From NCBI GenBank assembly GCA_903934295.1, contig CAIZNI010000020.1, positions 248,001 to 312,000 of the forward strand: a stretch of DNA of 64,000 bases, in the 5' to 3' direction. The notes under the pieces are model-generated. The model was not told where the DNA came from. It made no database searches and saw nothing but the letters and a program-made list of their open reading frames with translations. This stretch comes from an uncultured beta proteobacterium (GTDB taxonomy: Bacteria > Pseudomonadota > Gammaproteobacteria > Burkholderiales > Burkholderiaceae_E). Below, piece by piece: positions 49,230 through 64,000 of this stretch (position 1 is its first letter; each line of letters opens with the position of its first letter). The translations under genes and the position numbers were made by a program.

Positions 49230-50600
49230 TCAGGCGCCGGTCAGGCCCGGGTCGCCAGCCATCGCCAGCACCGCCCCGAACGGTTCATCGGGCAGCAGCC
49301 CGCCTCCGGTGGTCCAGACGACCTGGATCGCGTCGGGCGGCAGCGCCAGCGCCGAGGTCGCCGGCGCCAGCGCGGCGAAGCCAGCCGCCGCCGAGGGCTC
49401 CAGGCGCAGGCCCTGCGCCCGCCAGAGCCGGGCACACCAGTCGAACAGATCGGCATCGCGCACCGTCGCCACCGCGTCGAGCAGCGGCAGCATCTGGCGC
49501 GCGACCAGCATCGAAGCGGTCCCCACCGCCAGCCCGTCGGCGGCGGTGCGGTTGTCCAGGCCGATGTCATAGACGCTGACCGGTCGCGCCAGACCGCTGG
49601 CCAGCTGCACCAGCAGGCAGGGCGACGCCACCGGCTCGACGAAGACCGCAACGACCGCATCGCCGTACAACTGCTTGAGCCCGAAGGCGACACCACCGGG
49701 TGCGCCGCCGACACCGCAGGGCAGATACACCACCAGCGGCCGGGCGGGTGACGGCGCCACCCCCAGGGCCTGCAGCTGGGCGCGCAGGTCGAAGGCCGCG
49801 GTGGCGTACCCCAGGAATAGCTGCGCCGAACTTTCGTCGTCGACGAAATGGCAGTCGGGACGGTGCGCAGACGCCTCGCGGGCCGCCCTGACCGCCCGCG
49901 AGTAGTCGTCGGCGTGCTCGATCACCCGTGCGCCCAGCGCGCGCAGCCGATCCTTCTTCCAGGCCTTGGCGTCATGCGACAGGTGCACCTCGACCTCGAA
50001 ACCCAGCGCCCGGCCCATCACCCCGACGCTGAAGCCCAGGTTGCCGGTGCTGCCCAGCACCAGGGTGAAGCGGCCGAACAGCGCTCTGGCAGCCGGGCCG
50101 GCCAGGCGTTCGTGGCCGGGCGCACCCGGCTGCCCGGGCGCGGCCACATCCTCGAGCAGCCCGTGGTCCAGCGCCAGCCTCTCGGCCAGCACCAGGACCT
50201 CGTAGACGCCGCCCCTGGCCTTGATGCAGCCGGTCACCGGCAGCGCGTCATCGTGTTTGACCAGGACCCGATGCCCTGGCCCGCCTGCCACCCGGGCGGC
50301 GAGTTCGGAAGGCAGCTCGCTCAGCGGCGAGTCGATGCGTCCGGCAGTGGGTCGCAACACCGGGAACAAGGCGGCGAGCAGCGGACCGAACCGCGTCCAG
50401 CGCGCGCGTGCGTCCTCGATGTCGGCCAGGCGAAAGTCGGCCGCCGCCAGTGCCTGCGCGGCCGGCTGGCGCGCCGGATTGCGCCAGACCAGCGGTTCGC
50501 CCCGAGCGACGCCCCCGGGCAGCCCCTGCCACCGATCAGCCACCGCAAGCCCCTCGCGAGGCCGGGATCGGTGGCGTGGCACCGACAGGCTGCCCGCCAT
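49230..50600 (-). CDS. dsdA: D-serine ammonia-lyase (dehydratase)
   Basis: PLP-dependent enzyme that turns D-serine into pyruvate and ammonia. The PLP lysine lies in VTGCIKARGGVYEVL; GSTGNLGFSVGVMGRALG is the phosphate-binding loop; LPCGVGGAPGGVAFGLKQL and VWTTGGGLL are further family motifs. The ATG at 50600 gives 456 aa, near the family's usual size (about 440). A GTG nearer GLPGGVARGEP is also possible. No dsdC regulator is adjacent. Confidence 0.92.
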   Translation of the reverse strand: MAGSLSVPRHRSRPREGLAVADRWQGLPGGVARGEPLVWRNPARQPAAQALAAADFRLADIEDARARWTRFGPLLAALFPVLRPTAGRIDSPLSELPSELAARVAGGPGHRVLVKHDDALPVTGCIKARGGVYEVLVLAERLALDHGLLEDVAAPGQPGAPGHERLAGPAARALFGRFTLVLGSTGNLGFSVGVMGRALGFEVEVHLSHDAKAWKKDRLRALGARVIEHADDYSRAVRAAREASAHRPDCHFVDDESSAQLFLGYATAAFDLRAQLQALGVAPSPARPLVVYLPCGVGGAPGGVAFGLKQLYGDAVVAVFVEPVASPCLLVQLASGLARPVSVYDIGLDNRTAADGLAVGTASMLVARQMLPLLDAVATVRDADLFDWCARLWRAQGLRLEPSAAAGFAALAPATSALALPPDAIQVVWTTGGGLLPDEPFGAVLAMAGDPGLTGA

Positions 50601-50778
50601 CGGCACCCACGATGAGCGTGCGCAGGTCCGCCACGGCGGACCTGCCGTTAGCATCGACCGAGTGGCCCGAGCGGGAAGGCATTCGCATCAAAACCTCTAT
50701 CTGAATCAACTGCTTACAAAATAACCCGATATGTCACCAGCCATCGGCGCCCGCTATCGGTCCGATCGTCAGGATCGA

Positions 50779-52034: not shown

Positions 52035-53402
52035 ATGTCGCCACCGCCCCGGAAAATCCTGCTCAACGCGTTCAACATGAACTGCGCCGGCCACATCAAC
52101 CACGGCCTGTGGACGCATCCGCGCGACCGCTCGGGCGACTACAACACGCTGGCCTACTGGACCGAGCAGGCCCGAACGCTGGAGCGAGGGCTCTTCGACG
52201 GGCTGTTCATCGCCGACATCGTCGGGGTCTACGATGTCTATCAGGGCAACATCGACGTGACCCTGCGCGAGGCGATCCAGTTGCCGCTGAACGACCCGCT
52301 GCTGCTGGTCTCGGCGATGGCCGCGGTCACGCAGAACCTGGGCTTTGGCGTCACCGTCAACCTCAGCTACGAGCATCCCTACCTGCTGGCGCGCAAATTC
52401 TCGACCCTGGACCACCTCACGCAGGGGCGCATCGGCTGGAACATCGTGACCGGGTATCTGGACAGCGCAGCACGGGCGATGGGGCTGAGCGAACAGCTCC
52501 CCCATGACGCCCGCTATGACCGCGCCGACGAGTTCCTCGAGGTGCTCTACCAGCTCTGGGAAGGCAGCTGGGAGGACACCGCGGTGCTGCGCGACAAGGC
52601 GGCACGGGTATTCGCCGACCCGGGCAAGGTCCATCGGGTGCGCCATGAAGGCGCGCACTACAAGGTCGATGGCTACCACCTGAGCGAGCCCTCGATCCAG
52701 CGCACGCCGGTGCTCTACCAGGCCGGCAGTTCCGGACGGGGACAGCGCTTCGCGGCCCGGCACGCCGAGTGCGTGTTCATCTCCAGCCTGACCAAGGACA
52801 TCGCCCGCAGCACGGTGCGATCGCTGCGTGAGGAAGTGGTGCGTGCCGGACGCCGGGCCGAGGACGTCAAGGTGTTCCTGGGCGCCTCGGTGGTGACCGC
52901 GCGCACCGCCCGCGAGGCCCAGGAAAAGCACGCCGAATACCGCGAGTACGCCAGCCGCGAGGCGGGCCTGGCGCACTTCGCCGCCAGCACCGGGGTCGAC
53001 TATGCGCGCTTCGGGCTGGACGAGCCGATCCGCTACGGCGGCTCGAACGCGATCGAGTCGGCCGCGCGCACCGCCCAGCAGCACCAGTGGACCCGGCGCG
53101 AACTGCTCAGCCAGTTCGACCTGGGCGGGCGCCATCCGGCGATCGTCGGCGACGCCGCCACCGTGGCCGACGAGTTGCAGGGCTGGATCGACGACACCGG
53201 CATCGACGGCTTCAACCTGAGCCGCATCGTCGCGCCCGAGACGCACGCCGACTTCGTCGACTTCGTGGTGCCGGAACTGCAGAACCGCGGCCGCTACAAG
53301 ACCGAGTACCCCGAGGGCAGCCTGCGGCGCAAGCTGTTCGACGAGGCCGACCGGCTGCCGGCGCGCCACGCCGCGAACGCGTTCCGCCGCCAGCCCGGAT
53401 GA
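52035..53402 (+). CDS. LLM-class flavin-dependent monooxygenase (NtaA/DszA type)
   Basis: FMN-dependent enzyme of 455 aa, luciferase-like. The start KILLNAFNMNCAGHINHGLWTHPRD is typical of the NtaA/SnaA/DszA group. Other marks are FDGLFIADIVGVYDVYQGN, LDHLTQGRIGWNIVTGYLDSAARAMGL and VLYQAGSSGRGQRFAARHAE. Such enzymes need a flavin reductase; one candidate lies at 33.7 kb. The substrate (sulfonate, nitrilotriacetate-like or other) is not visible. An alpha/beta hydrolase gene follows after 46 bp. Confidence 0.88.
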   Translation: MSPPPRKILLNAFNMNCAGHINHGLWTHPRDRSGDYNTLAYWTEQARTLERGLFDGLFIADIVGVYDVYQGNIDVTLREAIQLPLNDPLLLVSAMAAVTQNLGFGVTVNLSYEHPYLLARKFSTLDHLTQGRIGWNIVTGYLDSAARAMGLSEQLPHDARYDRADEFLEVLYQLWEGSWEDTAVLRDKAARVFADPGKVHRVRHEGAHYKVDGYHLSEPSIQRTPVLYQAGSSGRGQRFAARHAECVFISSLTKDIARSTVRSLREEVVRAGRRAEDVKVFLGASVVTARTAREAQEKHAEYREYASREAGLAHFAASTGVDYARFGLDEPIRYGGSNAIESAARTAQQHQWTRRELLSQFDLGGRHPAIVGDAATVADELQGWIDDTGIDGFNLSRIVAPETHADFVDFVVPELQNRGRYKTEYPEGSLRRKLFDEADRLPARHAANAFRRQPG

Positions 53403-54574: not shown

Positions 54575-55273
54575 TCAAGCGCCGGGGATATCGGCGGCGG
54601 GCAGCGCCGGCAGCGCGACCAGCGGCGCCGCCCAGCCGACGATGCCGCCCTGGGCGACGATCATCTCGATGGTGGCGTCACGGAACTCGGGGAAATAGCT
54701 GGCGGTCGCGTCGGTGACCAGCAGGCAGTCGTAGCCCCGGTCATTGGCTTCGCGCATCGTGGACTGCACGCAGACCTCGGTGGTGACGCCGGCGAAGATC
54801 AGGTGGGTGATGCCCCAGTCGGCCAGCATCCGGCCCAGCGCCGTCCCGTAGAAGGCGCCCTTGCCCGGTTTGGTCAGCACGGTTTCGCCCGCCAGCGGCG
54901 CGAGTTCGGCGATGAAGTCGCTGCCCGGCTCGCCGTCGATGAGGATGCGCCCCATCGGTCCCGGGTCACCGATGCGCAGGCTCGGCAGCCCGCGTTCGCG
55001 CTTGGCCGGCGGACAGTCGGACAGGTCCGGGCGGTGGCATTCCTTGGTGTGGATGATGCGCAGTCCGCCTGCGCGGGCCCAGTCGAGCAGCGCGCGCGCC
55101 GGTCCGACCGCCGCCCGCAGGTGGCTGACGTCATTGCCCAGCGCCTCGCCGAAGCCGCCCGGCTCCAGGAAATCGCGCTGCATGTCGATCATCACCAGCG
55201 CGGTGTGCGCCGCCCGGAAACGAAAGGGACCGGGACGTGCCGGAACGTCGAGGGGGGTGTCGTCGATGCGCAT
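54575..55273 (-). CDS. Cysteine hydrolase (isochorismatase-fold)
   Basis: Amidohydrolase of 232 aa. The catalytic triad is Asp in [13 protein letters not shown], Lys in [13 protein letters not shown], and Cys in [21 protein letters not shown]. This pattern is that of RutB/biuret-hydrolase-like enzymes that cut C-N bonds. It is a distant paralog of the enzyme at 57000-57749. The ATG at 55273 is chosen for the conserved core. It is the last gene of the leftward ABC/hydrolase unit, 13 bp after the ATPase gene. Its substrate may be a second ureide. Confidence 0.85.
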
Positions 55274-55286
55274 GCTGGAAAGCCTG

Positions 55287-56987
55287 TCAGTGAAGGGCCG
55301 GTGCCGCCTCGGCGGGGGTCGTCGCATCGGCATGCCCGCCCATCGCGCGACCGATGCGGTCCCGATCCTCGGACGGGCGGGCGGTGTCGAACCCGATGCG
55401 CCCGCTGTTCAGGACCACCACCCGGTCGGAGAGCGCCAGCAACTCATCGAGGTCCTCGCTCACCAGCAGCACCGCGCAGCCCTCGGCGCGCGCGTCGCGC
55501 AGGCGCTGGTGAATCTCGGCCGACGACTGGAAGTCGAGACCGAAGACCGGATTCATCACGATCAGCAGCCGGGCATCGCGCGAGAGTTCCCGCGAGAGCA
55601 CCGCGCGCTGCACGTTGCCGCCCGAGAGCCGCTCGATCGGTTCGTGCGGCCCCCGGGTCTTGATCCGGTAGGCGGCGATGCCGGCCAGCGCGGCCTCGCG
55701 AAACGCGGCCGGGCGCAGCCAGCCGCCGCTCGACCAGGGCGCGCGGTCGAAGTCGCGCAGGGCCAGGTTGTCGGCCACCGACAAGCCGGGCACGCAGGCA
55801 TTCAACAGCGGCTCCTCCGGCAGCGCCGCGACCCGGTGGCGCCGATAGTCGGCGCGGGTGGCGTTGAAGGATTCGCCGAACACGGTGACCTGCCCGCCCG
55901 CCCGCGCCCGCTGCCCGGTGAGCGCCTGCACCAGTTCGCGCTGACCGTTGCCCGACACGCCGGCGACACCGACGATGCAGCCGGCCGGCACGTCCAGATC
56001 GAGGCCATGGATCGCCGGCAGGCCCAGGTCGTTCTCGACCCGCAGACCGCGGATCGCGAGTACGGTGCCGCCGTGCGCGACGCCAGCGCCCGACGCGACG
56101 CCTGCGCTCGACGCGACGCCTGCGCTCGACGCGGCGGCCTGCGATGCCGACGCGGCGGCATCCGATGCCGACGCGGCCGCACGGTCCTGGGCCTGGCTCA
56201 CCGACTCGGCCATCGCCTGGCCGATCATCAGGGTCGCCAGCTGGCGCGCATCCAGGTCGGCCACCGCGCCGCCACCGGCCAGCGCGCCGCGCCGCAAGAC
56301 GGTGACGTCATCGGCAAACCGCTCGACCTCGCGAAACTTGTGGGTGATGAGCAGCGCCGTCATGCGCCCGCCGTGGGCCAGCGCGCGCACCGCCTCGAGC
56401 AGTTCGTCGGCCTCCTGCGGCGTGAGCACCGAGGTCGGCTCATCGAGGATCAGGAAACGGTTCTCGGCGTACAGCTGCTTGAGCAGTTCGGTCTTCTGCT
56501 TCTCGCCGGCCGACAGGTCGCTGATGCGCGCATCGAGGTCGAGCTTGAACGGCACGGTGTCGAGAAAGGCCGCCAGCGCGCGCCGCTGGGCGCGCCAGTC
56601 GATCAGCGCCGGCAGCCCGCCGCGGGCCAGGCTCAGGTTCTCGGCAACCGTCATCGAGGGCACCAGGGTGAAGTGCTGGTAGACCATGCCGATGCCCAGC
56701 TCGCGCGCCTGCTGGGGCGAGGCGATGCCCACCTCGCGGCCATCGACCACCACGCTGCCGCCGTCGGCCCGATGAAAGCCGACCAGGCACTTGACCAGCG
56801 TCGACTTGCCCGCGCCGTTCTCGCCCAGCAGCGCATGAACCGTGCCGGCGCGCACCGACATCGAGACCTGGTCGAGCGCCACGAAGTCGCCGAAACGTTT
56901 GGTGAGCGCCAGGGTGTCCAGCGCCAGCGCGCGGCGCGCCGGATGCGCCGCCTGCAAGGTCGCACCCGCGATCCGGATCGGCTTCAT
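55287..56987 (-). CDS. ABC transporter ATPase, two nucleotide-binding domains
   Basis: Double-NBD ATPase of 566 aa of the BMP/nucleoside (RbsA-like) class. NBD1 is complete: Walker [11 protein letters not shown]-loop VYQHFTL, signature LSAGEKQK, Walker [10 protein letters not shown] and H-loop THKF. NBD2 has a degenerate Walker A ([10 protein letters not shown]) and signature LSGGNVQRA, with VMNPVFGLD, the usual asymmetry of this class. The linker holds an Ala/Ser/Gly-rich run of residues 278-310. It energises the permeases at 58.9-60.9 kb, even though hydrolase genes are between them. Confidence 0.93.
56077..56130. repeat. 18-bp tandem repeat in the ABC ATPase linker
   Basis: Three 18-bp units close to GCGACGCCTGCGCTCGAC at 56077-56130; the last two are identical. 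Each unit is six codons and encodes a Val-Ala-Ser-Ser/Gly-Ala-Gly-type string between the two ATPase domains. A degenerate continuation runs to about 56180. Confidence 0.85.
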
Positions 56988-56999
56988 GGTGTGTCCTGC

Positions 57000-57749
57000 T
57001 CAGCCGGCCAGCGCGGCCAGGACGGCCTGCGAGTCGGCCACCGCGCCGAAGACGCCACCCTGCATCTTGATCATCTTGACCGCCGCCAGGTGGTTGCCAT
57101 GATCGGTGGCACCGGTGCAGTCCTCGAGCATCAGGCACTCGAAACCGCGGTCGTTGGCCTCGCGCATGGTGGTGTGCACGCAGACATCGGTGGTGATCCC
57201 GGTGAGGATCAGGTTGCGGATGCCGCGGGTGCGCAGGACCAGCTCGAGATCGGTGGCGCAGAACGAGCCCTTGCCGGGCTTGTCGATCACCACCTCGCCG
57301 GGCAGCGGCGCCAGCTCGGGGATGATGTCCCAGCCCGGCTCACCACGCACCAGGATGCGTCCGCACGGACCGGCGTCGCCGATGCCCGCGCCGATGCGCT
57401 GCGAGCGCCAGCGCTTGTTGGCCGGCAGGTCGGACAGGTCGGGGCGATGGCCCTCGCGGGTGTGGATGATGGTGAAGCCCAGCGCGCGCATGCGCGCCAT
57501 GACCCGGGCGATGGGCGCGATCGGGGCCCGGGTGAGCGACAGGTCGTAGCCCATGGTGTCGACATAGCCACCGACGCCGCAGAAATCGGTCTGCATGTCG
57601 ATCACCACCAGCGCGGTGTTGGCCGGCCGGAGGTCGCCGTCGAAGGGCCACGGGTAGGGATCGGCGGCCACGCTCGGCAGGGCGCCGGCTGGCGTCGCGC
57701 CAGCGCTGGCGGCGGTGTGGGAGGAAGACGGCGTGGCGGCAGGGGTCAT
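57000..57749 (-). CDS. biuH: Biuret amidohydrolase-like enzyme
   Basis: Isochorismatase-fold hydrolase, 249 aa. It follows the pattern of the Rhizobium biuret hydrolase BiuH closely: [76 protein letters not shown] and [19 protein letters not shown]. Catalytic Asp, Lys and Cys are in [14 protein letters not shown] and TTDVCV. BiuH turns biuret into allophanate and ammonia. The divergent allophanate hydrolase at 62.4 kb would finish the pathway. The N-terminal 30 residues are Ala/Ser-rich and not conserved. Confidence 0.85.
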
Positions 57750-57824
57750 GTTGGAATCCGGCAGGGCAAGGGCGTTCGGGCGGGGCGCCGTCGCGGCGAC
57801 GGCTCGGTCAGCACGAGGACGCGT

Positions 57825-58850
57825 TCAAAGCGGGCCGTCGGGCCCGGGCAGTCGGTTGTCGGGCGCGTGGTCGCGTTCGGGCGCCGCGAAGCCGCAGGAG
57901 CGGCCGTCGGTGTGCACCACCTCGTCCTCCCAGGGCAGGCGGTAGGTGCCCGCGACCATGTCGCGCATGAAGGTGTAGGGGCAGTCCTGCGCGCCGCCGC
58001 GCACCGCCACATAACCGCGGTGATGGAACTGGTAGATGTTGTTCTCGACACCCCAGTGCCGGCGCGCTTCGCGAACCAGATCAGGCCGCACCTCGCAGGT
58101 AATGATCTCGTCCGGACGATGGCTGCCCATCACCAGCGGCTCGCCGTCGAAGTTCACGAACATGCCCTCGCCCATCGAGTCGAAAGTGCCGTCGCTGCCG
58201 CACATGCACACGCTGGCGGTGACCATCAGGTTCTGGAAGGCGTTGGACTGGTTGGTGATGCGCCAGGTGTGGCGGATCGGCGCGGTGTAGCCGGCAGTGC
58301 GGATCATCACCTCGGCGCCCTTGTAGGCACACTCGCGGGCCATCTCCGGGAACATGCCGTCGTGGCAGATGATGAGCGCGAGCCGCGCGCCGCGCGGGCC
58401 GTCGATGACCGGAATGCCCAGATTGCCGGGCTCCCAGGGCTCCACCGGCACCCAGGGGTGCAGCTTGCGGTAGTAGAGCGCCAGGTTTCCCTGGTCATCG
58501 AAGATCAGACCGCTGTTGTAGGGATTGCCGTTGGGGTTGAACTCCATGATCGAGAAGCAGCCCCAGATCCGGTGCTCGATGCAGGCCGCGCGCAGGGCCG
58601 CGACCTCGGGTCCGTCCATCCGGCACATCAGGGCCGGGTCGGTGTTCATCGACAGGCCGTGCAGCGAATACTCCGGGAAGACCACCAGGTCCATGGCCGG
58701 CGAATTGCGCCGGGCCTTGCCCACCATCTCGACGATGCGCGCGGTCTGGCGCGCGAGGTCTGCCGGCGTGTCCACCACCGGCAATTGCGACTGCACCAGG
58801 CCGATCACCAGCCCGTTGGGCGACTTGTTCAATCCGCCGAGTCCCGACAT
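57825..58850 (-). CDS. Nitrilase-superfamily amidase, formamidase-like
   Basis: Carbon-nitrogen hydrolase of 341 aa. The catalytic Glu-Lys-Cys are in VFPEYSLHGLSM, YYRKLHPWVPVEPW and LIICHDGMFPEMARECAYKGAEV. The start SGLGGLNKSPNGLVIGLVQ and the overall layout match the aliphatic amidase/formamidase (AmiF) branch, which frees ammonia from formamide or short amides. It lies between the permease and BiuH genes, so it is expected to act on the same imported nitrogen compound or on a breakdown product. Confidence 0.85.
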   Translation of the reverse strand: MSGLGGLNKSPNGLVIGLVQSQLPVVDTPADLARQTARIVEMVGKARRNSPAMDLVVFPEYSLHGLSMNTDPALMCRMDGPEVAALRAACIEHRIWGCFSIMEFNPNGNPYNSGLIFDDQGNLALYYRKLHPWVPVEPWEPGNLGIPVIDGPRGARLALIICHDGMFPEMARECAYKGAEVMIRTAGYTAPIRHTWRITNQSNAFQNLMVTASVCMCGSDGTFDSMGEGMFVNFDGEPLVMGSHRPDEIITCEVRPDLVREARRHWGVENNIYQFHHRGYVAVRGGAQDCPYTFMRDMVAGTYRLPWEDEVVHTDGRSCGFAAPERDHAPDNRLPGPDGPL

Positions 58851-58911
58851 CGATTGCTCCGTTGTTGCATTGACAGGAACCGCGCCGCGTCCGGCCCGCA
58901 GGCCGCCCGCG

Positions 58912-59838
58912 TCAACGGGTGAGACTGAGTTCGCCCGGCGCGCCCGCCAGCGAACGGCGCGACGACGAGGTGGCGATCATCACCGCCAGCGTCAGCACAT
59001 AGGGCGCGGCATTCCACAGGTGGTAGCCCTGCTGGATGCCGATGGCCTGCAGTGCCGGGCCGATCGATCCGGCACCCCCGAACAGCAGCGCCGCCCAGAC
59101 GCAGCCCACCGGATGCCAGCGCGCGAAGATCACCAGCGCCACCGCCATCACGCCCTGCCCGCTGGACAGCGCCTCATTCCAGCTGCCGGGGTAGTAGAGC
59201 GACAGGAACGAGCCGCCGACGCCGGCCATGAAACCGCCGGCGGCGGTCGCCCAGGTGCGCACCGCAGTGATCGGAAAACCGAGCGCCCGCGCCGCGTTGG
59301 CGCTGTCGCCCACGGTGCGCAGGATGAGTCCCCACCGGGTGGCGCGCAGCGCCCAGCTGAGCGCGATCGCACAGACGATGCCCACCAGCAGCAGCACGTT
59401 GATCTGAAGCGCCGACGCCAGCGCCGGCGAGTCGCTCCAGCCGCCGAGTTCGATGGCCGGCAGGCGTGGCGCGGTCGGCTGCACATAGTCCTTGCCGAAG
59501 AAGAAGGCGAGCCCCAGGCCGAGCGTCATCAGCGCGATGCCGAAGGCCACATCGTTGACCCGTGGCAGGCTGCAGACCAGTCCGTGCAGCAGACCGAAGA
59601 CGGAACCGAAGAGCCCGGCGGCGAGCACGCCCCACCAGGCCGAACCGCTGTGAAAGGCGACCGCATAACCGCTCATCGCACCGAACACCATCGTGCCTTC
59701 CAGGCCGAGGTTGATGCGACCGGCGCGCTCGGTCAGGGTCTCGCCCAGGCTCACGAACAGGAAGGGCGTGGACACCCGCAACGCGCCGCCCAGCACGGCG
59801 GCGAACACGGTCAGCCAGGCGCTTTCGTCGCCGCTCAT
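58912..59838 (-). CDS. ABC transporter permease (BMP-class), second subunit
   Basis: Membrane protein of 308 aa with about 8-9 helices. FVSLGETLTERAGRINLGLEGTMVFGAMSGY is the signature of the YufQ/NupQ class, and GLILRTVGDSANAARALGFPI is the coupling-helix region. Its start overlaps the stop of the other permease by 4 bp (ATGA). It belongs to the importer with the receptor at 60.9 kb. Confidence 0.92.
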   Translation of the reverse strand: MSGDESAWLTVFAAVLGGALRVSTPFLFVSLGETLTERAGRINLGLEGTMVFGAMSGYAVAFHSGSAWWGVLAAGLFGSVFGLLHGLVCSLPRVNDVAFGIALMTLGLGLAFFFGKDYVQPTAPRLPAIELGGWSDSPALASALQINVLLLVGIVCAIALSWALRATRWGLILRTVGDSANAARALGFPITAVRTWATAAGGFMAGVGGSFLSLYYPGSWNEALSSGQGVMAVALVIFARWHPVGCVWAALLFGGAGSIGPALQAIGIQQGYHLWNAAPYVLTLAVMIATSSSRRSLAGAPGELSLTR

Positions 59839-60911
59839 GGCTGACTCGCCGGGGCAGGCCCACGGGTGCGCAGGCCCAGGGGACGCAAGCGCCAGTTGAT
59901 GCGTCCGTAGAGCGCCTCGCTCGCCAGGATCGAGACGAACAGCAGGCCTTGCAGCACCTGGGTGGTGGCATCGGGCAGATCCAGGCGGCGCTGCAGCAGG
60001 CTGCCGGCGGCCGCGATGCCGCCCAGCAGGATCGCCACCGGCACCGCGGCCAGCGGTTGCTGGCGCGCGATGAAGGCGACCAGGATGCCGGTGTAGCCAT
60101 AGCCGGCCAGCAGCGACGCGTTGGCCGCCCCGTGCACCGCCAGCACCTCGATTGCACCGGCCAGGCCGGCACAGGCGCCGCCGAGCGCGCAGGCGGCGAC
60201 CAGCAACGAGGCCACCGGCAGACCGACCAGTCGGGCCGCGCGCAGGTTGCCGCCGGCCACGCGCATCGCGAAGCCCAGCGAGGTTCGGGAAACGAAGATC
60301 TGGGCGAGCAGGGCCGCGACCACGCCGATCGCCAGCCCCCAGTGCAATTCGGTGCCCGGCATGGCGCTCATCAGCAGCGCCTCCGGGATCGGTGCGGTCG
60401 ACGGCTTGTTCAGGCTGGCCGGATCGCGAAGCGGGCCATCGACCAGGTGATTGAAGACCGCGATCGCGATGTACGACAGCAGCAGGCTGGCGATGGTTTC
60501 ATTCATGCCGCGCCAGGTGCGCAAGGCACCGGCCATGGCATTGACCAGCGCGCCGGCCAGCATGGCGGCGACGCAGGCCAGGAGGATGAGCAGGGGCGCC
60601 GACGCACCGGCCCGGGCCAGCGCAAGCGCCGCGCTGGCGCCGGCCAGGCCGCCGATGGCCAGCGCGCCCTCGCCGCCGATCATCACCAGACCGACCTGCG
60701 CCGGAATGGCGACCGCCAGACCGGTCAGGATGAGCGGCGCGGCGCGCAGCAGCGTGTTCTGCCAGGCGAAGCTGCTGGCAAACGCGCCCTCGACGATCAC
60801 GCCGAGCACTTCGAGCGGGTCATGCCCGATCGCCAGCACGAAGCCGCCGAACAGCAGCAGACCGCCGGCGATCGCAATCAACGCGATCCCCAGGGGCTCG
60901 AATCCACGCAT
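59835..60911 (-). CDS. ABC transporter permease (BMP-class), first subunit
   Basis: Membrane protein of about 358 aa. LVMIGGEGALAIGGLAGA and NETIASLLLSYIAIAVFNHLVDGPLRDP are the YufP/NupP signature; RVAGGNLRAARLVGLPV is the coupling region. The ATG at 60911 is taken; a GTG three codons upstream is possible. It starts 31 bp after the receptor gene stop, so receptor, two permeases, and the downstream hydrolases likely share one transcript. Confidence 0.92.
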   Translation of the reverse strand: MRGFEPLGIALIAIAGGLLLFGGFVLAIGHDPLEVLGVIVEGAFASSFAWQNTLLRAAPLILTGLAVAIPAQVGLVMIGGEGALAIGGLAGASAALALARAGASAPLLILLACVAAMLAGALVNAMAGALRTWRGMNETIASLLLSYIAIAVFNHLVDGPLRDPASLNKPSTAPIPEALLMSAMPGTELHWGLAIGVVAALLAQIFVSRTSLGFAMRVAGGNLRAARLVGLPVASLLVAACALGGACAGLAGAIEVLAVHGAANASLLAGYGYTGILVAFIARQQPLAAVPVAILLGGIAAAGSLLQRRLDLPDATTQVLQGLLFVSILASEALYGRINWRLRPLGLRTRGPAPASQP

Positions 60912-60941
60912 GGCCACCACCCGCCCTCCGGTTTGCGTTCG

Positions 60942-62057
60942 TCAGGCCGGGATGCTGCCGATCACGCCTTCGACCAGGTAGTTCATCTTTTCGAGTTCGA
61001 TGTTGGTCATCTCGAGCGAGGTACCGGCGGCGATCACCGTGTTGCCCTTGTTGTCCTTCAGCGGTCCCTTGAAGATCACGAAATCGCCCTTCGTGAGCGA
61101 ATTGCGCGCCTTGTCGCCGGCTTCCTTGGCCTTGGCCGACACGCCCGCGCCGTACGCCGACATCTTGACGAAGCCTTCCTTCAGGCCGCCGCGCACGAAG
61201 TTCGACATCGGCTTGCCACCGGCCAGTTCCTGAACCAGCATCTTGTAGGGCGTCGACCAGTCCCACTCGGCGCCGGTCAGGTAGCCCTTGGGCGCGAGCT
61301 TGGCCTGGCTGGCGTGATACCCGCAGCTCATGATCCCGCGCTTCTCGGCGGTCTCGATGACGACCTTCGGACCATCGACGTGGCAGGTGACCACATCGAC
61401 GCCCTGATCGACCATGCTGTTGGTGGCTTCGGCTTCCTTGACCGGCAGCGACCAGTCACCGGTGAAGATCACCTGGGTGGTGATCGACGGATCGACCGAG
61501 CGCGCGCCCATGGTGAAGGCGTTGATGTTGCGCAGCACCTGGGGGATCGGCTTGGCAGCGATGAAGCCGAGCTTCTTCTTCTTGCTCATGTGACCGGCGA
61601 CGACACCGGCGACGTACTGGGCGCCATCGATGTAACCGAAGTAAGAGCCGGTGTTCTTCGGGTGCTTGCCCTCGGTCCACATGCCGCCGCAATGCATGAA
61701 GCGCACGTTGGGGTACTTCTCCGCGACCTTGAGCATGTGCGGGTCGAAGTAGCCGAACGAGGTGGCGAAGATGAGCTGCGCCTTGTCCTGGTTGATCATC
61801 GCTTCCATCGACTTCTGCACCGCCACCGTCTCGGCGACCTTCTCTTCCTCGACCACCTTGATGTTGGGCATCTTCTTGAGGATGGCGGCCGCCTGCGCCT
61901 GCGCCTGGTTGTAACCGAAGTCGTCACGCGGACCCACATACAGCACACCGACCACCAGCTTCTTGTCAGCGGCCCACGCCGACAACGGCGCACCGGTCAC
62001 CGAGACAAGGCCTGCCGCACCGGCGGCACCGACGAATACACGACGGGAAGAATCCAT
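60942..62057 (-). CDS. BMP-family ABC transporter substrate-binding protein
   Basis: Periplasmic receptor of 371 aa (PnrA/BMP type). The signal MDSSRRVFVGAAGAAGLVS... ends near AWAADKK, with an RR pair that might use Tat. Family motifs are VGVLYVGPRDDFGYNQAQAQA, IFATSFGYFDPHMLKVAEKYPNV and FGYIDGAQYVAGVVAGHM. Receptors of this kind bind nucleosides or small ureide-like molecules. It leads the leftward importer operon. A sigma-54 promoter lies 67-93 bases upstream. The ATG at 62057 puts the signal at the N-terminus. Confidence 0.93.
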   Translation of the reverse strand: MDSSRRVFVGAAGAAGLVSVTGAPLSAWAADKKLVVGVLYVGPRDDFGYNQAQAQAAAILKKMPNIKVVEEEKVAETVAVQKSMEAMINQDKAQLIFATSFGYFDPHMLKVAEKYPNVRFMHCGGMWTEGKHPKNTGSYFGYIDGAQYVAGVVAGHMSKKKKLGFIAAKPIPQVLRNINAFTMGARSVDPSITTQVIFTGDWSLPVKEAEATNSMVDQGVDVVTCHVDGPKVVIETAEKRGIMSCGYHASQAKLAPKGYLTGAEWDWSTPYKMLVQELAGGKPMSNFVRGGLKEGFVKMSAYGAGVSAKAKEAGDKARNSLTKGDFVIFKGPLKDNKGNTVIAAGTSLEMTNIELEKMNYLVEGVIGSIPA

Positions 62058-62135
62058 GAGAAAGCTCCAGAAAGGGATTTGAGGGGCGAGGCGGGCTGCC
62101 GACAGGGCGTCGCCAGCTTGTGTACAAGACCGGAC

Positions 62136-62150
62136 GCAAGATTCTTGCCA
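62136..62150 (-). promoter_or_regulatory. Sigma-54 promoter of the importer operon
   Basis: On the minus strand TGGCAAG-AATC-TTGC (62150 to 62136) matches the -24/-12 element TGGCACG-N4-TTGC with one difference, GG and GC separated by the correct 10 bp. Transcription would start near 62124, leaving a 67-base leader before the BMP receptor ATG. Confidence 0.8.
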
Positions 62151-62225
62151 GCGGGAGACCCGCGGGAAAACCGCCACCGCGCCCGCCATCGCGGTGCACC
62201 GGCGCACGCCACCCAACCGGCAAGC

Positions 62226-62262
62226 GCACCAAATCCGTGCCTCATCGGCACGACTTCCGTGC
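62226..62262. promoter_or_regulatory. Tandem NtrC-type sites (GCAC-N7-GTGC)
   Basis: GCAC-N7-GTGC occurs at 62226-62240 and 62248-62262, 22 bp apart, two turns of the helix. This is the dyad spacing of NtrC sites (TGCAC-N7-GTGCA). They lie 100-140 bp upstream of both outward-facing sigma-54 promoters, the usual enhancer distance for NtrC. Confidence 0.72.
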
Positions 62263-62353
62263 ATTCGCCTCGAACCCCACCGCATCCGCGTGCCCACCGA
62301 CAGGACACACCGCGACACCGCCCCCTCTGGACCAGCCATCGGCGCCCACCCCC

Positions 62354-62370
62354 TGGCACGCAGCTTGCAT
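62354..62370 (+). promoter_or_regulatory. Sigma-54 promoter of the allophanate hydrolase gene
   Basis: TGGCACG (62354-62360), four bases, TTGCAT (62365-62370) is a perfect -24/-12 sigma-54 element. Transcription should start near 62380, 28 bases before the ATG at 62408. Confidence 0.88.
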
Positions 62371-62407
62371 TCGATCTTGTATTCAAGAATGGATGCCGCA
62401 GGAAACC

Positions 62408-64000
62408 ATGGACTCGGTCTGGATCGAAAAAATCACCGCCGAGGCGGGCGCCACCGCGCAACCCGCCGCCACCGGCCCGCTCGCCGGACGCCGCTTCGCC
62501 GTCAAGGACAACATCGACGTCGCGGGCGTGCCGACCACCGCCGCGTGCCCGGCGTTCTCCCATGTACCCGCGCAGTCGGCGACCGTGATCGAGCGGCTGC
62601 TGCAGGCCGGCGCCTTGGTCGCGGGCAAGACCAACATGGATCAGTTCGCCTGCGGGCTGAACGGGTCGCGCTCGCCCTATGGCACGCCGGCCAACAGCTT
62701 CGACGCGCGTCTGGTGCCGGGCGGCTCGAGTTCCGGCTCGGCGGTGGCGGTCGCGCGTGGCGAAGTCGACTTCGCGCTGGGCACCGACACCGCAGGTTCG
62801 GGACGCGTGCCGGCGGCGATGAACAATCTGGTGGGCCTGAAGCCGACGCGCGGCCTGATCAGCAACCGCGGCGTGGTGCCGGCCTGCCGGTCGATCGACT
62901 GCGTGTCGATCTTCACCACCACCGTGGCCGAGGCGGTCGACGTGCTGATGGCCGCCGCCGCTCACGACCCGCTCGACCCCGGTTCGCGGGCCCTGCGTCT
63001 GGACCCGGCGTTCTTTCCCCCGGTCTTTCGCTTCGGCGTGCCGCGCACCGAAGACCTCGAGTTCTTTGGCGACGACGCGTCGCGCGAGGCCTTCGCGCAG
63101 GCCTGCGCCCGCCTGCAACGGCTCGGCGGCACACTGGTGGCGATCGACTTCCGGCCGTTCGCGCAGGCGGCCGCGATGCTTTATGAAGACGCGTTCGTGG
63201 CCGAGCGCTACGCCGGCATCCGCGACTTCTTCGATGCCCACGCCGACAGCCAGCCCGAGGTCTTCGACCCGGTGGTGCGCGCCATCATCGCGTCGGGCCG
63301 GCGCTTCAGCGCCGCCGACTGGTGCCAGGCCACCGACCGCCTGGGGCTGCTGCGCCAGCGCTGCGATGCCGCCCTCGCGAGTGTCGATGTGCTGGTGCTG
63401 CCCACCACCCCGACGCTGATCAGCGTCGAGGCGATGCGCGCCGAGCCGGTCGAGATGAACCGCCGGCTGGGTCATTACACGAACTTCGTGAACCTGCTCG
63501 ACTATGCGGCCCTGGCGGTGCCCGCCTGCCTGCGGGCCGACGGTCTGCCCTTCGGCATCAGCTTCATCGGCCCGGCGGCCAGCGACCTGCGCCTGGCCGA
63601 CATCGGTCAGCGCTTCCACCACGACACCGGCCTGAGCGCCGGCGCCACCGGCAAGCCGCTGGCACCGGCCCGCGACATCGTCCGACCGGCCGGCAGCACG
63701 GTGACGCTCGCGGTGGTCGGCGCCCACCTGTCGGGCATGCCGCTCAACGGCCAGCTGCGCGAACGCGGCGCGCGCTTGCTGCGCACCGCGCGGACCGCGC
63801 CCGAGTACCGGCTATTCGCGCTCGAAGGCACGGTGCCCCCGAAGCCGGGCCTGCTGCGCGTGGCGCCGGAGCAGGGGCACGCGATCGCGCTCGAGATCTG
63901 GGAGATGCCCGTCGAGCACTACGGCTCGTTCGTCGCCCTGATCGGCGCGCCGCTGGGGATCGGCACCCTGCGCCTGGAAGACGGTGCCACGGTGCAGGGT
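62408..64000 (+). CDS. atzF: Allophanate hydrolase (AtzF-like), 3' truncated by window edge
   Basis: Converts allophanate to ammonia and CO2. The ATG has AGGAAA ahead, and 531 codons are visible without a stop. The amidase-signature domain (residues 1-440) has catalytic Lys in FAVKDNIDVAG, then GGSSSGSAVAV with the cis-Ser, and the nucleophile Ser in GTDTAGSGRVPAAMN. Substrate-linked KTNMDQFACGLNGSRSPYG is typical of this group. From about residue 445 a second domain begins (VTLAVVGAHLSGMPLNGQL), as in AtzF, not in plain amidases. Biotin carboxylase (urea carboxylase) was not seen. It is divergent from the BMP importer. Confidence 0.93.
   Translation, partial: MDSVWIEKITAEAGATAQPAATGPLAGRRFAVKDNIDVAGVPTTAACPAFSHVPAQSATVIERLLQAGALVAGKTNMDQFACGLNGSRSPYGTPANSFDARLVPGGSSSGSAVAVARGEVDFALGTDTAGSGRVPAAMNNLVGLKPTRGLISNRGVVPACRSIDCVSIFTTTVAEAVDVLMAAAAHDPLDPGSRALRLDPAFFPPVFRFGVPRTEDLEFFGDDASREAFAQACARLQRLGGTLVAIDFRPFAQAAAMLYEDAFVAERYAGIRDFFDAHADSQPEVFDPVVRAIIASGRRFSAADWCQATDRLGLLRQRCDAALASVDVLVLPTTPTLISVEAMRAEPVEMNRRLGHYTNFVNLLDYAALAVPACLRADGLPFGISFIGPAASDLRLADIGQRFHHDTGLSAGATGKPLAPARDIVRPAGSTVTLAVVGAHLSGMPLNGQLRERGARLLRTARTAPEYRLFALEGTVPPKPGLLRVAPEQGHAIALEIWEMPVEHYGSFVALIGAPLGIGTLRLEDGATVQG

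Follow-up and report, generated by a model that had tools for sequence, protein, structure and literature searches.

Which compounds are taken up and broken down by a cluster of amide hydrolases that adjoin their own importer genes, and what is a formamidase doing among them? The question is raised by the right-hand end of a stretch of DNA from an uncultured betaproteobacterium (contig CAIZNI010000020.1 of assembly GCA_903934295.1, positions 248,001-312,000 of the forward strand). The whole stretch, 64,000 nucleotides long and with a guanine-cytosine (GC) content of 69%, is referred to as the window, and all coordinates below are window positions. Here a leftward unit encodes a BMP-type ATP-binding cassette (ABC) importer, a biuret amidohydrolase (BiuH), a formamidase (AmiF), and a second isochorismatase-like hydrolase, and it is faced by a gene for an allophanate hydrolase (AtzF). 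The gene content and its conserved order, together with the enzyme families, diagnostic residues, and a promoter signal, indicate that the unit very probably serves the uptake and catabolism of triuret and biuret, with likely nitrogen control through sigma-54.

The second isochorismatase-like hydrolase (54575..55333, minus strand) indicated the entry point. In phmmer searches, its best match among solved structures was the triuret hydrolase TrtA (6xix, 291 bits), against 188-205 bits for biuret hydrolases, including the Rhodococcus BiuH (6xjm, 205 bits) and BiuH 6azo (193 bits). Of the positions described as diagnostic of TrtA (24, 29, 35, 41, 72, 129, 132, 134, 160, 162, 187, 202, and 205; PMC7948467), the TrtA letter was found at 13 of 13 checked. 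The same letters divided 99 TrtA-labelled from 114 BiuH-labelled rows with few exceptions, apart from position 134, where Met stands in 20 of the 99 TrtA rows; the labels followed the best blastp query, so that this split is partly built in. Its sequence identifies this protein as TrtA, a triuret hydrolase that yields carboxybiuret (PMC7948467), and the initial annotation therefore left one step out of the predicted pathway. A pathway starting from biuret only was dropped after TrtA had been recognised from the 6xix match and the 13 letters.

The remaining enzymes were assigned by curated family models. BiuH (57000..57749, minus strand) scored 432 bits with NF050097 (cut-off 370) and 417 bits against 6azo, and it has the BiuH letters Tyr, Tyr, Ser, Asp, Thr, and Val at six discriminating positions; the Pfam Isochorismatase domain was found in both BiuH and TrtA. 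AtzF (62393..64000, plus strand, running on to approximately 64090) scored 711 bits with TIGR02713 (cut-off 511) for the protein up to the window end, and it includes an amidase and an AH_C domain, with PF21986 as the C-terminal domain. AmiF (57825..58850, minus strand), a member of the nitrilase superfamily, scored 564 bits with NF009803 (cut-off 406), as well as 367 bits against 5g3o and 323 bits against 2dyu. It keeps the Cys, Glu, and Lys aligned with those of the solved formamidases, which we take to be the catalytic residues.

The importer consists of an ATPase (55287..56987) with two ABC_tran stretches (PF00005), two permeases (permease 1 at 58912..59838 and permease 2 at 59835..60920; both PF02653, BPD_transp_2), and a BMP-family receptor (60942..62063; PF02608, Bmp), all on the minus strand. 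The best NCBIfam match of the ATPase was the B6-type BMP ABC ATPase, at 420 bits under its cut-off of 670. For the receptor, the listed open reading frame (ORF) opens at 62339, and the ATG at 62063 was chosen as the start, where a twin-arginine-like signal begins, as judged by eye. The unit is compact, with successive gaps of -47, 12, 75, 61, -4, and 21 bases from the end of TrtA to the receptor, and a terminator 3' of trtA was looked for and none was seen. The third-position GC fraction was 0.87-0.92 in the named genes versus 0.63-0.72 in four measured overlapping antisense frames, confirming that the named genes look coding. The composition of the leftward unit, its dedicated BMP importer, the facing allophanate hydrolase, and the closure from BiuH through allophanate to AtzF, as proposed in the initial annotation, were all upheld by the domains and curated cut-offs.

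From these genes we infer the reactions in the host, the ligand of the importer, and the source of formamide. The importer would take up a small carbonyl-rich ureide or a related ring. TrtA would convert triuret to carboxybiuret and ammonia, carboxybiuret would lose CO2 to give biuret, BiuH would hydrolyse biuret to allophanate, and AtzF would release ammonia and CO2 from allophanate. Alternatively, AtzE and AtzH, encoded past the window, may take carboxybiuret to allophanate, and a cyanuric acid hydrolase encoded on another contig could supply the same carboxybiuret. The formamidase, recurrent yet optional, would most likely convert formamide to formate and ammonia, the formamide being either scavenged or released inside the pathway.

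Beyond the end of atzF, the same contig continues with Dpp-type ABC genes, a 63-amino-acid ORF, AtzE, an AtzH-like protein, and a GntR regulator, the supposed atzG-to-atzH stretch lying 5.7-7.7 kb past the window end. AtzE scored 667 bits with NF006631 (cut-off 461) and 553 bits against 6c62, and the AtzH-like protein scored 208 bits (cut-off 27). AtzEG and AtzH are known to take carboxybiuret to allophanate, and clusters in which atzG-atzE-atzH is surrounded by ABC genes and an allophanate hydrolase gene have been described in betaproteobacteria (PMC6219798). The initial annotation reported no cyanuric acid hydrolase, which holds for the cluster itself but not for the genome, where a cyanuric acid amidohydrolase was found on another contig (540 bits, cut-off 360). 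Two further relatives on other contigs scored 274 and 188 bits, under the cut-off; of these three genes of the cyanuric acid hydrolase/barbiturase family (L235, L236, and L237; contigs C41 and C71), only the one on C41 passes. ORFs resembling isochorismatases by eye were seen in the loci L235 and L237. The host genome also contains urease, and for urea carboxylase a search with one marker domain (PF02682) gave one match, on another contig. Since TrtA is present by sequence, and since the genome encodes atzE and atzH further along the contig and a cyanuric acid hydrolase elsewhere, the entry at biuret or an unknown ureide that had been suggested earlier is not needed.

Sites of the -24/-12 type with up to one mismatch occurred three times in the window, against 0.83 expected, a count reached in four of 100 shuffles. 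A site matching 12 of 12 letters lies upstream of atzF (62354..62369, plus strand), and a candidate promoter for the leftward unit matches 10 of 12 (62135..62150, minus strand). Among the 81 related loci with enough upstream sequence, 52 had a sigma-54-type site of at least 10 of 12 upstream of the BMP gene, compared to 4.6% of random segments from the same loci. The nitrogen regulon proposed in the initial annotation was borne out as far as the sigma-54-type promoters indicate it. NtrC sites showed no excess (60 matches in the window versus 54.6 expected, with up to three mismatches).

This result weighs against the proposed reading, and so do several others. The pathway steps in the host are assigned by similarity, and the formamidase has no established place among them. 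The nearest solved relative of the importer's receptor binds guanine (PMC6834077). Where TrtA starts is uncertain, with an ORF that overlaps the ATPase by 47 bases, and the 63-amino-acid ORF in the place of atzG matched no NCBIfam family and is a putative AtzG by size and position alone.

A scan with the window BiuH gave 591 confirmed loci, and the best 80 of these were compared; they are hence biased toward BiuHs like that of the window. The order BMP-permease-permease-[AmiF]-BiuH-ATPase-TrtA recurred within the host's own order as well as in named Alpha-, Beta-, and Gammaproteobacteria. Because this gene order recurs in many genomes, as was found when genomes were searched for it, the grouping of the genes exceeds chance.

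Among the best 80 of 591 loci, AmiF was encoded in 26, in every case (26 of 26) between permease 1 and biuH, and was missing from 54, several of which were cut by contig ends or lacked an importer. Two genome samples were also searched for AmiF (E at most 1e-60): 15 of 300 genomes from the host's order gave a match, as did 15 of 398 from its phylum; four genomes, including the host, were common to both, leaving 26 distinct genomes. AmiF lay within 10 kb of biuH in 24 of these, comprising 18 with AmiF in the slot between permease 1 and biuH, five of one genus with AmiF 3.6-8.5 kb upstream, and one (G119) with AmiF after the ATPase, while no biuH was seen within the stretch fetched around AmiF in G286 and G392. 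AmiF accompanies biuH more than biuH accompanies AmiF.

Of 491 plasmid records matching AmiF, 125 were 60-80% identical and 366 were below 60%; the 18 shown from the latter group, 44-45% identical and annotated as formamidase, were not counted as kin. Among the 40 best plasmid AmiF rows, 22 (many of them near-copies) adjoin biuH when their coordinates are compared with those of the 40 best BiuH rows, and two more do so by annotation; one had no biuH within 8 kb, with 25 of the 40 rows covered. On the Enterobacter cloacae plasmid pENT-784 (CP009856.1, L238), the order atzF-BMP-permeases-formamidase-BiuH-ATPase-second cysteine hydrolase-GntR lies between two transposase genes. AmiF and BiuH at the same identities as in pENT-784 (76.5% and 82.1%, respectively) are neighbors on further plasmids from Enterobacter, Klebsiella, and Citrobacter.

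In a BiuH tree of 101 rows, of which 50 were AmiF-positive, the presence of AmiF needed 28 changes versus 34 for shuffled labels, and five of 500 shuffles were as low; the window BiuH was nearest to Burkholderiales-type sequences but within no well-supported set. Repeated loss of AmiF from an ancestral state would be the simpler reading, because AmiF has one slot. Across 48 loci, the distances of AmiF correlated with those of permease 1 (0.39, null maximum 0.17) and BMP (0.27, null maximum 0.19), and the correlation with BiuH was 0.19, inside the null range (0.26).

Genes that co-vary with AmiF were sought by clustering 10,083 ORFs of at least 80 amino acids over 136 stretches, 50 of them AmiF-positive and 51 AmiF-negative; single linkage fuses related families here, antisense ORFs are included, and most families have no annotation. 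Besides ORFs antisense to cluster genes, the enriched families were an ORF antisense to atzD (10 versus 1) and a LysR-like regulator, identified by eye (7 versus 1). AtzD itself was found in nine of the 26 AmiF-positive and two of the 54 AmiF-negative loci (Fisher p 0.00045) among the same best 80; the loci are related (four are from Alloalcanivorax) and some are cut by contig ends. With related loci and two usable pairs in an independent-pairs test, this association was not relied on as evidence.

How AmiF came to be there may be read in two ways. In the first, the cluster is a mixed nitrogen-scavenging unit, in which AmiF hydrolyses formamide from outside and is present through a shared promoter with no metabolic link to biuret or triuret; we consider this reading to have about an even chance of being correct. 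It is consistent with the optional occurrence of AmiF among the best loci, the changes on the BiuH tree, and the AmiF-BiuH distances. In addition, AmiFs outside the slot resemble the window AmiF as closely as those inside, with examples at 75-80% identity: 78-80% in the five genomes of one genus with AmiF 3.6-8.5 kb from biuH, 75% in G392, and 78% in a Paraburkholderia plasmid, the last two without biuH nearby. Since these AmiFs are equally similar, the substrate is probably ordinary formamide. However, a free scavenger would be expected elsewhere more often than in two of 26 genomes while most of the best biuH loci lack AmiF, and the identical slot in all 26 loci also argues against this reading.

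In the second, which appears unlikely, the formamide is made within the pathway. Formylurea and formylbiuret are biuret and triuret, respectively, with one NH2 replaced by H, and they could arise from azauracil, oxonate, or oxidised nucleobases. BiuH or TrtA would cut them at the carbamoyl end; the release of ammonia from formylurea would give carboxyformamide, from which loss of CO2 to formamide is expected, and AmiF would then yield formate and ammonia. AmiF would thereby close a formyl-ureide branch, with ureides imported by a receptor with Gln at the position of AtzT Glu165 and cut by TrtA and BiuH, in one unit for oxidised nucleobase debris. The proximity of AmiF to biuH in the sampled genomes fits this scheme, and formylurea was the second-best substrate tested for the Herbaspirillum TrtA, although at only 0.3% of the triuret rate (PMC7948467, Table 2). 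No rate for BiuH on formylurea came up, no paper on this idea was found in the literature search, and the only AmiF-enriched families seen, atzD and the LysR-like regulator, do not point to formyl compounds, most families being unannotated. Shared scavenging was favoured over formamide made within the pathway, because nothing else seen in the units points to formyl compounds, within the limits of the co-variation analysis.

The receptor was considered separately. Its nearest solved relative is AtzT (6pi5, 196 bits), which contacts guanine through Tyr45, Ser97, Phe98, Glu165, Trp194, Asn218, and Asn220 (PMC6834077). Leaving aside one short sequence, 98 of 99 cluster receptors were compared; in these, the position of Glu165 is occupied by Gln (86), Ser (7), Thr (4), or Ile (1), and never by Glu, while Ser97, Asn169, Trp194, His218, and Asp220 are invariant; the window receptor has Gln. 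In addition, 30 BMP loci were collected from 60 genomes belonging to the host's order. In all 19 rows with an identity of at least 42% to AtzT, position 165 is Glu (two of these rows look like one protein), as is the aligned position of 3s99. Gln was seen in three rows that closely resemble the window receptor and stem from biuret-type clusters or unexamined contigs, and also in one row intermediate between the AtzT-like and window-like groups (L214); more distant rows vary. The replacement suggests a ligand with a hydrogen-bond pattern other than that of a purine. A system for the uptake of purines or nucleosides, with amidases attached to it and the biuret genes being secondary, is consistent with guanine and adenine in the two nearest solved receptors (6pi5 and 3s99; PMC6834077) but is very improbable, being disfavoured on sequence grounds by the loss of the purine-contacting Glu from every cluster receptor while the AtzT-like rows keep it.

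Further genes were observed near the cluster. A D-serine ammonia-lyase (49230-50654; 495 bits, cut-off 246) was matched in none of 135 related stretches, and an NtaA/DmoA-type flavin monooxygenase (52035-53402; 543 bits, cut-off 280) in one of 135. Neither of the flavin monooxygenase genes on the two sides appeared to be part of the cluster, each being matched in one of the 135 stretches, at 30-35% identity.

Related systems have been described. The trtA-biuH-atzF operons of Herbaspirillum sp. BH-1 and Rhizobium leguminosarum bv. viciae 3841 share the three hydrolases and the pathway (PMC7948467), and the main text of that paper nowhere contains "formam". Contigs of ammonia oxidisers carry bmpA-nupABC with biuH, trtA, trtB, and atzF, thus the same importer type beside these hydrolases, and their synteny legend lists neither a formamidase nor atzE (PMC12625717). 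The annotated record of plasmid pRltTA1C of R. leguminosarum bv. trifolii TA1 (CP053207.2, L239) shares the order BMP-two permeases-formamidase-cysteine hydrolase-ATPase-cysteine hydrolase, but differs in that a gene annotated as cyanuric acid amidohydrolase separates BiuH from the ATPase, inside the formamidase-bearing cluster, and in having a GntR gene upstream. AtzD-family genes were seen in the same interval in L088, L106, L121, and L147. Pseudomonas sp. ADP, with atzDGEHF and AtzT, shares the AtzE-AtzH-AtzF carboxybiuret route and a BMP-family receptor, whereas its operon has no biuH or trtA, and AtzT, which has Glu165, binds both guanine and 2-hydroxyatrazine (PMC6219798, PMC6834077).

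The combination of importer and formamidase had been regarded as undescribed in the initial annotation. For the importer this did not hold, as a BMP importer beside trtA, biuH, and atzF is reported in nitrifiers (PMC12625717). Among the papers listed in the literature search, none joined formamidase with biuret or biuret hydrolase terms; figures in papers on BiuH or cyanurate distribution may show a formamidase neighbor. The pathway and TrtA/BiuH/AtzF operons with BMP importers are hence already published, and the formamidase link is the part not found in print.

These results set apart a subfamily of receptors whose ligand site is altered and which can be screened directly for binding of triuret, biuret, cyanuric acid, and formyl-ureides. 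AmiF, a companion of the biuret hydrolase in 24 of 26 sampled genomes, poses a concrete question of its role. Because the natural sources of triuret have been termed unknown (PMC7948467), AmiF as a partner enzyme may offer a clue to the real substrates of these units.

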